Assembly (NCBI GenBank): GCA_009760855.2
Contig: WPIO01000043.1
Location: forward strand, 2,818,501-2,882,500
Length of the DNA: 64,000 nucleotides
Direction of reading: 5' to 3'
Source: Cristatella mucedo
Lineage: Eukaryota; Bryozoa; Phylactolaemata; Cristatellidae
Part shown: positions 40,001 to 47,480 of the stretch, one piece after another
How the letters are laid out: every line of letters starts with the position of its first letter
Numbering within the stretch: the stretch's first letter is position 1
The notes under the pieces: model-generated
Told to the model about the DNA's origin: nothing
The model's input: only the letters and a program-made list of their open reading frames with translations
The model's database searches: none
Made by a program: the position numbers and the translations under genes

Positions 40001-43000
40001 TTCGGTTGCACAGGAAGTGGATGATTATTTCATTATTTTGAGTACGTGACTGAAGCCTAATTCGTTCGTATTCGCTTACATTTTTAGATTCCTCGTAAGC
40101 TGTTTCTGAGGTAAACGTAGCATACTAAAGTGTAAGCTAATCCTGCTGCAAATGAGGCTATGGATAACGCTTCAATAGCCACTACCCTGACTGTGTTCTT
40201 TTAATTTTGACTTTTGGGTGACTTCTGAGGAGCCGCATGAAAAATACATTTGCGATCTCATTCCTTTTTTTCTACTTGGTGAAATTCAAAGCTTACATAA
40301 CATTTCTCATCTTTTTACCGAATGAGGTACTCACAGTCACATTTAAACACTGATGTAACTCGACGCCCTAACGTAAAAGGCAGTTCGGATAAATTATCTG
40401 ATAACAATATTTGATGTTATCGGACGTGCAGAATCGGAAGTAATTACCTTAATTGAATGATTTATACTGACTTTCTGCAAGTTGCAAATATAAGCTTTTT
40501 TAGGTTTAATGAAAACTACTATCCACAATGTTGGGCAGAGTAATAATATAATAATGTAATTCATTTACATAGCCTCCGAAGAGAACTTAATCTCCCCTAA
40601 CCATGTTATTCATTTTTTTCAAGCATGATTTTACTTACCATTCAATTGCATTTCCCTTTGCAGCAAATGTAAAGCGCCTAGAAAGAGATTAAGTTCTCTG
40701 AGGGCGCTTTATCAAGTGCATTATTATTATTATTATTCAGGCGCTTTTACATATGTCTCGGGGCTCGAGCCCACGACCTCAGCCAGACCTTGGCCGTGGC
40801 GAGCGCCTTAACCGCTGGACCAACAGTACAAACCACAATTCTGAATCCATCGATTAATTTTACCTTGAACGGATATCAAATGCTATGAAGACCGTACCTT
40901 TCTTTCGTATGCAACCTAAACCTGGAGCTTACTTCTGCCTGACGTCACGACACCCCTCTGACTGTGCTTTAAAAAGAAGCCAAAATTGCAACTGTTTATT
41001 ACAGCAGTTGTTTGCTCCACGAGAGTCTTTCTCTGTCTTCATGCTTGCTTTCGCTCTGCATGCTGCCACTAACCTTATTGCATATTGAATCAATGCATGT
41101 CTCCTCAGTCATATGCTTATTAATATTTGCATGCTGCCCTTAATTATTTGATGTTGCGTCCTTGACACCACACTGAATGCGCCCAGAAACACATACTTTT
41201 TTTTAGGATACAATGCCAGAGTTGTATCATTGTTTTTCATTAACTTTTTGATGGCTTTAATAGTCTACAGTAGCATTTCGAAAAAACTATCATGTAATAG
41301 GGATACAATAATATCTATGGTGTTAAGCATCTAAGACTAAATTATAAAATGCTGACCACCAATCAGATGGCTTACCAGCAGCCATTTAGGAAAATGGCTG
41401 AGACTGTTAAGACCTTTTTTATGTGTACGACGTCGACAGCCACATTGAAAAAGATTTTTGAATCGTGAATGTGACTGAGGTGGTACTTTTTTTTGTTCTG
41501 CTAAGTGTATACTGAATTAAAACTATTTAAGGCAAGTTTAGAAAATCCGGAATTTTTATTGAGAAGCCTGATACGTTCATTGGTGAGAAGCCATCAAAAA
41601 AAGCATCGGGCAGTTAGAAGTATTGGTTATCAATTCGTGGATTGAAACCATGAGGTGTGAAGTGGTTTTTAATGCTACGTGTACCGCAGACCTAGTAATG
41701 ATTGTGACGCCAAAACTTCTATCAACATTCGTACTGATCTGACACTTACAACGATTGGAGGTCTCAATATTTCTCTATTTTATTTGGCAGAGGACAGACT
41801 TTGTTGAAGGAAGGAATAGCAAAAATGAGGCCATCTTTGGCGGCCAGATTGTGAATCCTGTAAGATTTCTTTGGCTATTGAACTTTAGGGACTTAGAACT
41901 TATCTTTTTCTGATCCTCTCTAGGTGCTATAATTGCCGGAGGCGTGCAAGAGCAGAAAGATTAGCTCGGTGAGTTAAATGGATCGGTGGTTGTTCGCTAA
42001 GGATTCATGCCGATTGGCCTCTGAGAAATGCTTCTGGTTTCGTTGTACTGTCGCTCTTTACCATGGCTGATCTTGCACGCCTATAAATATTGTTGACGTC
42101 TACGGTACTACTCTGTACTATAGATATGCGTTATTTAATTCGTAATAAGCAGGCCAATTGTTACTTTTTTACTTCACTGTAGCTATTATACCTTGTCCGT
42201 AGACGCAGCACTTGCAAGTCCATGGCCGTGTTCTCAAACGTCCAGGACTCGGAATATGTCTACTGTGGATCAAGTAAGACTAGCACCGAATGATTCGCTT
42301 AAGGCCAAACAATATGAGTGAATTGGAAAACCTACTGCTGCTGCATCTGCAGTAATACTTTTGTGTGTTTTGATGTTTTTCCTGCATTGATACTAAACAG
42401 ATCACCGACCAATTTTCTCTGTCGTGCAGCAAGTTTTGAAATAGCTGGACAGATATTTCGTTATTTGTAGTGCCATACCAAATACTTGTCAGTAATAGAA
42501 GAACGTAGAAGAATTGTAATTTAAAATGATGTGAGTTTATTTCCGGTGGATGACACAGACTTTTATTTAAATTGATTACCCTAAAGGTGATATGAAGCTA
42601 TCAGTAAGCTTTCGAAAATATTTTGCACAACGGACGAACGGTGAAGTCGCGCTTACTTTTCTGCGAGTAGTAAATTTAGTTCATATAACGAATGACATTG
42701 CAAGTGCAGTATTATTATTATTATTAAGCTCGAAATAGTGTAGGCCACAAAAAGAAAAAACTTGCTTACAGAGCGTTTCAGAGGCCTATTTTGTTAGCAT
42801 GCGGTCTAAATAGCAATTTATTTAGTAAAATGTGCATGCATATATATATGTATACTATTATAATAGTAGTAATAACAATAGAATAATAAGTGGAGCAAAA
42901 ATGCACGTAAAGAAGTTACCCATAAAGTGTGATGCAAACGCAGCAGATGAATAATCCTGATCAATACATATATTTTACACCCGTCTTGGGCATCTTCAAA

Positions 43001-46000
43001 AAATTACTTGGCTTATTAGCTTGCTACTTCAGACAGAATAATACAAACAGTATTAAACTAGACGATTTTTGTGATGTTAGCAACACTTTAACTTAATGTT
43101 TAGACTCTTTTAGTACCCATAAATTCAAGGTAATATAAATTATGAATGTATATATATATTAATTGAAATTATCATATTTAAGTATAAATGTATATATACA
43201 TTATATATGTTTGAATCATGCAGTTGTCGATCCTTAATTGCCGCTGACAGCCATGGTGATTGCCGTAAATGCTCTTCTGTCGCCATGCAAAAGAGGCTGT
43301 GAAATCAGCTAGTATTTTTTTTTTACCAGTAACTAAAAATTTAATTTCAATTCAGGAGTAGCATTTAGTTAAAACTTTCTTGAATGAATACATAAATATG
43401 CATTTCCTTTATCATTTCATAGGTTAGGTTAAAATATTAATTAGTTATAACACTAGCAATACGTAAGTGTTGCAACAGCTTTATTGGAAATTACTAAGGC
43501 ATAAGAAAATACGATTGCTCTCTGCTCCTGCGCTCTAATAATTTTCTCGAAATATATCATATGACCTCGAAAATTTAATAAATGCATTCAGAATGACCTC
43601 GGCTGTTGTGAGCGACAATCATAGATTATTTTTTTTAATGCAACTTCTGTATTTATGGAGGCTAGCCTGTAGGAGTCTCGGCGTATTTAAATGGTTTCTG
43701 CAATCGTTATTATCATTGCTAATGCCGTGATGGCACACTAAGTAAAGCTGCTGCTTTTCACGACCTCAGGACCAATGTCATGGATTTAAATCCTGCTGTG
43801 TGATTTATTAATGCAGCAAGAGGTGGTGATAGCCGTAAAGGATATTATGTCGCTATACAAAAGAGATAGTTAAGCAGCTATTATTTTTACTGCTCAAACT
43901 TTTGTAGGACACCTGAGTTTTAAAGTCATTTGGGATGCTTTGACAGAATAAATAGTTACTTTCTGAATTACAACAATAGAGCAAAATTTCTAAAATTCGT
44001 CTCTTTTTTAATTGACAGGCAAAAATAATTTGATTCGGTTGAAAAATGACTAATCATAAGTTATAACTCCTACAACTATCTATGGAAATGTGAGCATGGT
44101 ACTGGAAACTTGAGTAAGTATCGAATCCATTTTGATTGGATGTGACAAACCTGCTAAAGAATTTGTACTTATGGGGCATAGTCAATTTGTTTTCCTTGTC
44201 AAACTCCATCGCCGTGAGATTCAATTGCAGCAGCGTTATCATCAACATCGATGTCAATTTCGTTGGCAGCGGAAGGGCTTTCTTTATTATTAGTTAGGAA
44301 GGTTTTGAAGACGTCCGCGAAAATTTGTGAAACCAGTCTTATTCAATCTTATATAAGTAAACGCTCTTTTTAAAATATTGAAAATATAAATTGTTCGTCA
44401 TTAAACTAATGCTTCAATATCTGAATTACTTGCCCCAAACACAAAGATACGTTTTCTAAATAAAATAAATTGCATATATCTTTAGTTTAATAAGGGTCTG
44501 GGTATATTTCTGTCGTTTAAAAAAATTTAAGGGAACTTCGAATGTTCTAGGGCTAGACCTGTAGACATTCATGCGACTTAATTTAGAGAGTAGAAGTATA
44601 AACAGACCCGCCATAACAAATTCAAAGACATACGAAAATTAAAGGTCTCTAAGGCAATTAATTCGCTTCCCCTTACCGCTTATAGGTTGATTACCTCGAG
44701 TTATTAACACGTAAGTTAGTTTAGTAGAGGGAGCGATGTTGAAGAACTAAAATAAGCTTGAAAAAAGCATACAGTTTCTGCAGAATGATAATGTCTGGTA
44801 GCTTCTGGGACATCTTGACCGCTGATGCACATCATGAGAATTGTGTATTTTATTATATTTTTTTTACAGGTTGGATTCCTTGGTTACATTCCACCAGGCG
44901 AATAGAAATTTGAAACATCAAATGATTAGCATATTTTTTCAAGTGGAACTCCAAAGAGAAACTCTGGTGCGTTGGTTTTTTAGTGACTACAGAATCTTTA
45001 CGGTCCTTAGAAAATAACTGTATTTGAACGATAATATTATCTACTCCTTAGAACTAAATATTTTAGATAACTATTACTATGTAAAAGTCTTCCTAATATT
45101 AATAATAGCAACTAATTTATACGGCACCCTCTAAGACCTAATACATTTATAGAAAGTTTGCTGATGCGTTGAAAAAATCTTCACTGAATTATTAGTGGTC
45201 ACATTTCAGTCACATTGGTGGTCATAATAATAATAATAATAATAATAACAATATTGCACTTGATAAAGCGCCTTCAGAGAACTTAATCTCTTTCTAGGTG
45301 CTTTACATTTGCTGCAAAGGGAAATGCAATTGAATGGTAAGTAAAATCATGCTTGAAAAACAAACAAAATGAATAATATGGTTAGGGGTGACATGCACAG
45401 GGTAAGCATGCAAATTTGGTTAGTGGCAGCATGCACAATGTCAGCACGCATAAGCACATCAAGGACGAATCACAGGGACACACTGAATGCTGTCCAAAAT
45501 AGGTGTGTTTTTAAGTTCCTTTTAAATGTGGTCAGGTCAGGGGATGTTCTGACGCAGGTCGAGAGGGGATTCCAGGCTTTGGGAGCATACGAGCTAAATG
45601 CACGGTCTCCGAAGGACTTAAGGTTTGGTACAAGGTATTTGTAGGCTGTTGGATTCCGAAAAGAATGTGGTATGATGCTTGGCCTGATGCGGGAGTATAT
45701 CTGAGAGATAGGCTGGAGCCATAGAATGAAGGGACCTAAAAGTGAGTGACTAATCCTTGAAGTCAATCCATTGCTTGACTGGGAGCCAGTGCAGGTCGGC
45801 GAGAAGTGGAGTAATGTAGCAACTGCAACGCTCACGACAGACAAGCCTAGCTGCAGAGTTTTGCACCAGCTGCAATCGCTTGATCGCACATGCTGGTAGG
45901 CCAGTAAGCAGTGAGTTGCAGGAGTTGAGACTGAATAAAAGGTATGAATACAGTTAACATATCTCTTTGAAAATGAATTATAGAAATAGTTTGACTAATT

Positions 46001-47462: not shown

Positions 47463-47480
47463 CTTCAAGACATTATACGG

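Follow-up and report, generated by a model that had tools for sequence, protein, structure and literature searches.

The stretch analysed here, 64,000 nucleotides of Cristatella mucedo contig WPIO01000043.1 (C376:2818501-2882500, referred to as the window), holds most exons of an SLC18B1-like transporter gene, gene A, whose exon 3 is present twice, once open and once interrupted by a stop codon. Gene A is probably chimeric, two tandem SLC18B1-like paralogs having been joined by unequal exchange. To the joint, an upstream gene P, presumably closely related to today's gene B, would have contributed its intron 3, and the older gene that follows it its intron 2. The resulting gene would then have received its promoter side and exons 1-3 from P and exons 3-11 from the older gene, leaving exon 3 doubled. 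As the exon is 74 bp long, a transcript holding both copies would have been frameshifted, and one copy would have had to be skipped. The older, downstream exon 3 would subsequently have acquired a TGA and an altered donor, and would now be a vestige within intron 3, probably spliced out for the most part. We infer a single exchange in this direction, with skipping of the dead copy and perhaps with the participation of a long interspersed nuclear element (LINE).

Gene A and its two copies of exon 3

Gene A lies on the minus strand and is complete with 11 exons, which were located with a query sequence, their borders then being set by splice sites. Exons 3-11 lie inside the window, from 47462 down to 6825, and the start of the gene lies past the window end, where positions are given in extended coordinates that continue the window numbering beyond 64,000. 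The coding sequence of 1371 bases, stop included, encodes 456 amino acids, and all 10 introns are GT-AG. The best PDB match of the product is the SLC18B1 structure 9d7u (E 1.9e-62, residues 56-444), followed by a synaptic vesicular amine transporter (E 2.3e-12), and Pfam assigns it MFS_1 (E 4.2e-33). By homology over the MFS core the gene is predicted to be an SLC18B1-like transporter, and an earlier sequence-only reading, which had spoken of a transporter gene, was right in this respect. Between genes A and B, dN/dS over exons 4-11 is about 0.5 (0.139/0.273).

That reading had described two direct copies of a segment, one with an open exon and a GTAAGT donor at 47.4 kb and the other with a TGA and a GTAACT donor at 42.9 kb. 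Both exons were found as described, on the minus strand. Alignment of the window against itself by BLAST gave three direct matches (42857-43042 with 47327-47511 at 83.4%, 42271-42645 with 46626-46996 at 75.3%, and 42107-42170 with 46533-46596 at 81.3%; E 1e-42 to 5e-7), so that similarity extends well beyond the exon rather than being limited to it. The repeated unit, which had been put at roughly 0.9 kb, is larger, since 41777-45198 is collinear in pieces with a region present once in gene B and is matched in pieces by gene A at 46.5-47.5 kb and, beyond the window, at 65.5-70.5 kb, the latter matches falling within 43324-45198. The live and dead exons differ at 8 of 74 sites and share a run of 38 identical bases. 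Outside the exon the two copies are 73.3% identical, which makes an assembly duplicate or a haplotype artefact very unlikely.

By homology, the dead exon would correspond to the third transmembrane segment. When it replaced the live copy in an in silico splicing, a stop was met within that segment, while transcripts with both copies, or with neither, were frameshifted and ran into early stops. Since 74 is not a multiple of 3, only mutually exclusive use of the two exons could ever have been productive, and the TGA leaves only one of the two open.

Divergence from the neighbouring paralog

Gene B is the tandem neighbour of gene A; all 11 of its exons were located, each of them open, and its introns are GT-AG. 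Up to 45198, the window tracks gene B from the 3' flank through exon 11, exon 8 and exon 3 into intron 2 (B 2781146). From 45938 onwards it restarts at B 2769930, within intron 3, and then covers exons 3, 2 and 1 and reaches the 5' flank. It should be noted that pieces of B 2772792-2781146 occur on both sides of this seam, that is, twice in gene A, as unequal exchange predicts, while B 2769930-2770490 is found above the seam only. The parental overlap is thus doubled around the joint. Most of 43310-45198 is also matched by intron 2 of gene B and by intron 2 of gene A past the window (65536-65670, 68821-70502). The dead unit most likely stems from the older parent, of which it would hold part of intron 2, the dead exon 3 and the beginning of intron 3, and 46533-48421 most likely represents the start of intron 3, the live exon 3 and the end of intron 2 of the incoming 5' half.

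The two parts of gene A stand at unlike distances from gene B. Distances were obtained with one aligner over non-coding sites with repeats left out, and are given as Jukes-Cantor (JC) values with 95% block-bootstrap ranges. Between genes A and B the distance is 0.284 (0.274-0.295; 13557 sites) for the 3' half and 0.205 (0.190-0.222; 5822 sites) for the live half. The dead unit differs from gene B by 0.286 (0.264-0.309; 2896 sites), which equals the value for the 3' half, and therefore belongs with that half; its distance from live A is 0.273 (0.254-0.293; 2423 sites). The chain of matches comprises 33 blocks; its microsatellite and LINE blocks at 13451, 24072, 26263, 37917, 45231 and 48627 and the LINE part of 31655-33100 were left out, blocks below 10828 were not counted, and three 5'-flank blocks were counted apart. 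The same step can be observed in the chain of matches itself. From the 3' flank up to 41736 its blocks are 65.8-75.6% identical, except that two LINE matches reach 97.9% and 87.5% and a 272-position block with exon 8 reaches 79.4%. Identity lies at 76.3-81.1% between 46533 and the 5' flank (80171), with the exception of blocks of 94 positions (87.2%), 2096 positions holding exons 1-2 (88.1%) and 229 positions (85.6%). The segment 45938-46501 is 75.6% identical to gene B.

A regional difference in rate as the cause of the step is ruled out by scaling to an outgroup paralog, gene D. The ratio of the A-B distance to the mean distance to gene D is 0.703 for the old 3' half (2818 columns), 0.703 for the dead unit (1218) and 0.467 for the new, live half (2344); it keeps the step, which is therefore no local rate effect. 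These ratios come from 13 blocks at collinear gene D positions. The initial set comprised 22 rows aligned to gene D (12 old, 2 dead, 6 new and 2 of the 5' flank), from which 9 (5 old, 2 new and 2 of the 5' flank) were dropped as their gene D match was not collinear with the gene D exons.

In a four-way non-coding tree rooted with gene D, live A and B pair with each other to the exclusion of the dead copy, (dead,(live A,B)), with bootstrap 100 in 200 replicates; 75 informative sites join A and B, 19 join dead and A, and 16 join dead and B. In the gap-free columns of the tree (two segments) the distances are 0.24/0.20 for A-B, 0.38/0.33 for dead-A and 0.42/0.32 for dead-B, higher in absolute terms, with the order unchanged. 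Gene C was excluded from the tree, its intron homology being short. A change-point analysis placed the step at 46313 (interval 46206-46627) with a log-likelihood gain of 50.3. The gain was 42.4-43.9 at 45.5-46.0 kb and 42.4-50.3 for all cuts at 45.5-46.6 kb, compared with 22.2 at 41750 and 14.2 at 66000, and none of 5000 shuffles of 100-site bins matched the observed statistic. The step at 46.2-46.6 kb and the joint at 45.2-45.9 kb agree within about 1 kb, not exactly.

The seam and alternative readings of the dead exon

The joint between the dead and live units, 45199-45937, consists mostly of a LINE fragment. BLAST homology between genes A and B ends 31 bp from one end of this element (45229) and resumes 7 bp past the other (45931). 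Its terminal branch in a tree of 32 copies is 0.051, and the split between the dead and live copies corresponds to about 0.14 per lineage (half of 0.27-0.29). The fusion would be fairly young if the element mediated or preceded the exchange. Of 80 BLAST hits to its family, 53 reach the 3' end (294 kb of joined DNA), and target-site repeats in the family are weak.

Several observations weigh against the fusion, and the exact position of the seam is its weakest point. The best-matching LINE copy is the same across the four parts of the seam element, with no sign of the hybrid that an exchange mediated by the repeat would leave. The segment 45938-46501, immediately above the seam, stands at the old level (JC 0.277, 0.227-0.325) where the new level is expected, and the best change-point falls inside or above this segment and not at the seam. 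The older part, moreover, has no counterpart of this segment between 41736 and 41777, so one extra deletion is needed. The live half is patchy, with a bin variance of 31.4 against 14.7 expected; the distance p from gene B is also high at 48067-48421 (0.232) and drops to 0.033 at 73395-74000, just below exon 2, nearby blocks being at about 0.17. Gene conversion was therefore probably also at work. Over all 22 rows aligned to gene D, the A-B totals are 0.236 (old), 0.289 (dead), 0.225 (new) and 0.148 (5' flank), the old and new values being much closer to each other than after the 9 non-collinear rows were dropped. Finally, the exon taken alone gives 8/74 differences between dead and live A, 13/74 between dead and B, and 11/74 between A and B, and the base at exon site 3 is common to dead and live A against B, C and D, through chance or a small conversion.

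The exon counts are the natural argument for a plain tandem duplication inside gene A, the failed mutually exclusive pair of the sequence-only reading. A single gene with two direct copies of the same length, a length that permits exclusive use only, is what such an event would leave, and the exon alone puts the dead copy nearest to live A. The non-coding sites say the opposite. Had the exon been duplicated after genes A and B split, the dead copy should be nearer to live A than B is, whereas the distances are 0.273 and 0.205, and the tree, in which the dead copy lies outside the pair, contradicts it with full bootstrap. Had it been duplicated before the split, A and B should be equally distant in their 3' and 5' halves, yet the 3' halves stand at 0.284; gene B should also retain a second copy or a scar, but the sequences in it that correspond to 40814-41736 and 45938-46501 are separated by only 300 bp, in which no second exon 3 was found. 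A simple in-gene duplication, before or after the split, is accordingly rejected on distances and tree, barring strong rate differences between the copies, and we regard it as most improbable. What stands of the earlier suggestion is that one copy is non-coding and that only exclusive use could be productive; an origin within the gene finds no support in the distances or the tree.

A two-step history fits better: an in-gene tandem duplication of intron 2, exon 3 and intron 3 in the older gene A, after which a large conversion by, or equal exchange with, a B-like gene replaced the live copy and the 5' half from about 46.5 kb upwards. The change-point would then fall where the likelihood peaks, at 46.2-46.6 kb, the old level of 45938-46501 is accounted for, and tracts resembling conversion exist, such as the one below exon 2. 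It requires two large events whose edges lie less than 1 kb apart, while a single unequal exchange yields both, and on balance we consider it unlikely. In either history, fusion or duplication followed by replacement, the dead exon is probably that of the older gene and the live exon the incomer.

The small number of changes in the dead exon bears on when it died. Four changes are strictly private to the dead branch, or 5-6 by a looser hand count of alignment columns, compared with 13.8 expected had the exon been neutral throughout (branch 0.187 from the tree); the probability of so few is 0.006 for 5 changes, 0.016 for 6 and 0.035 for 7. Such a deficit would follow if the exon worked in the old gene and died late. 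The same conservation could also point to present use as a poison exon, whose regulated inclusion would lead to nonsense-mediated decay and less transporter; this concerns function today and is compatible with a fusion origin. In silico inclusion does produce a premature stop. Across 2637 aligned sites of the unit, no other 74-site window is as conserved as the dead exon, which is 89.2% identical (73.3% outside it), the highest of the others reaching 85.1%, and the uninterrupted identity with the live copy over 38 bases agrees with this. Its acceptor is intact, and its donor scores above 7 of 34 family donors by a simple matrix, itself built from the same 34 donors of genes A-D. On the other side, equal conservation is expected of an exon that coded in the old gene and died recently, three of the four strictly private changes alter an amino acid or create a stop, and the donor has lost the +5 G that 29 of the 34 family donors possess. 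A functional poison exon is, in our estimation, very unlikely. We would give little credence to the further candidate by which a choice between the parental exons 3, one productive and one leading to decay, might set the output of the chimeric gene.

The GTAACT donor is present as the sequence-only reading had it, but it is weak evidence of death, as the +5 G is absent elsewhere in the family too: of the 34 donors of genes A-D, 5 lack it, among them that of exon 8 in each of the four genes. The exon 8 donors of A, B, C and D are gtaacg, gtaccg, gtaata and gtaaat, a shared non-standard donor.

Features, paralog arrays and comparison with known systems

Table 1. Positions of gene A exons, duplicated segments and seam element (window numbering unless stated; collinear positions are those of gene B on C376)
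Feature	Position	Strand	Description
Gene A exon 1	extended coordinates 74542-74282	minus	beyond window end
Gene A exon 2	extended coordinates 74138-74043	minus	beyond window end
Gene A live exon 3	47389..47462	minus	74 bp, open, donor gtaagt
Gene A exon 4	36799..36946	minus	148 bp
Gene A exon 5	30974..31042	minus	69 bp
Gene A exon 6	16846..16933	minus	88 bp
Gene A exon 7	13044..13180	minus	137 bp
Gene A exon 8	10842..10943	minus	102 bp; donor gtaacg, without +5 G
Gene A exon 9	9835..9935	minus	101 bp
Gene A exon 10	9587..9682	minus	96 bp
Gene A exon 11	6825..7023	minus	199 bp, taken as terminal, holds stop codon
Dead exon 3 copy	42920..42993	minus	74 bp, in-frame TGA, acceptor ttgaag, donor gtaact
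Dead unit	41777..45198	minus	collinear in pieces with C376:2772792-2781146; JC 0.286
Intron 3 of older parent	40814..41736	minus	collinear with C376:2768686-2769629
Window part of incoming 5' half	46533..48421	minus	collinear in pieces with C376:2773113-2774862
First segment above seam	45938..46501	minus	counterpart C376:2769930-2770490; JC 0.277
Seam LINE fragment	45229..45931	minus	apparently 5'-truncated, TAA-repeat tail; terminal branch 0.051

Gene A is one member of a large family. Its protein matches at least 94 places at E <= 0.1, its own exons included, mostly at about 2.23-2.89 Mb of C376 and about 2.41-3.35 Mb of C550, with a few matches on C332, C685 and C133. Judged by these matches, the two arrays would represent a large expansion of SLC18B1-like genes, and two more genes appear to lie at about 2235-2271 and 2441-2492 kb of C376. 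In DNA searches of the 572-Mb genome, whose place counts are lower bounds, the dead region was found in at least 5 places and exon 3 of gene D in at least 7, namely live A, dead A, B, C, D and two on C550. Among the C376 genes whose exon 3 was found, gene A alone has two. Gene C, at about 2327-2354 kb of C376, is possibly truncated: its exons 3-8 were found, but at a cut-off of E 0.1 the DNA examined yielded neither exons 1 and 2 nor exons 9-11. Exon 4 of gene D was likewise not found at that cut-off in the region examined, which is partly N.

Around exons 1-2, about 1.2 kb of gene A (extended 73395-74600) is 96% identical to gene B (C376:2782104-2783311), the adjacent introns being about 80% identical; this has the appearance of recent gene conversion. 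A short repeat at 47021-47165, 40734-40823 and 16286-16430 is present in the live unit and absent from the aligned part of the dead unit; its start resembles that of a short interspersed nuclear element derived from a transfer RNA (tRNA). By eye, an open frame of 528 codons at 26487-28070 (minus) resembles the reverse transcriptase of a LINE. The family was probably active recently, since the stretch 26975-27751 within this frame recurs at 64000-63224 with 98.6% identity. At 61497-61760 (plus), an open stretch resembles, by eye, a retroelement integrase core. When two of the three minus-strand frames over 47-62 kb were translated with read-through and scanned against Pfam, no transporter domain emerged, the method being one that misses short exons, and one weak reverse-transcriptase match was obtained. 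Scans of the window for tRNAs and with Rfam returned nothing. The COI gene of the mitochondrion can be translated well when TGA is taken as W, AGR as S, ATA as M and AAA as K, a code in keeping with an invertebrate such as a mollusc, annelid or brachiopod.

A dead exon beside a live twin is readily taken for a failed alternative exon. Here the introns indicate that the twins probably came from different genes, and a doubled exon can consequently mark a fusion of paralogs. The test used, in which the distance of each gene half to a sister gene is compared with the aid of an outgroup, is applicable to catalogues of duplicated exons, and would reveal how many supposed in-gene duplications are scars of fusion. 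Gene A would further exemplify a doubled exon that shifts the frame and that must have been skipped ever since it arose. Among the open-licence papers listed, as far as their titles and the starts of abstracts show, no description was found of this gene or of a dead exon as a fusion scar.

Hybrid genes arising by unequal exchange between tandem paralogs are well known, as in haemoglobin Lepore, CYP2D6/2D7, and the glycophorin and opsin hybrids. Gene A resembles these in that two adjacent sister genes appear to have been joined as one, and differs in that its breakpoints would be staggered, from intron 3 to intron 2, so that an exon was kept twice. SLC18B1 itself, the vesicular polyamine transporter (VPAT), is matched by the predicted product over the MFS core, gene A differing as one among many paralogs in its own genome. 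Haptoglobin HP2 (PMC7426911) is likewise described as having doubled exons in a gene beside a tandem paralog; in gene A, by contrast, one copy is dead and the copies would come from different genes. Tandem duplicated or mutually exclusive exons, which PMC9013439 and PMC9741552 describe as alternative exons, share with gene A their equal length, homology and neighbouring positions in one gene; they differ in that one copy in gene A carries a stop and the pair would derive from a fusion of paralogs. A doubled exon with one dead copy at the seam between paralogs is a new instance, both ingredients of which are familiar.

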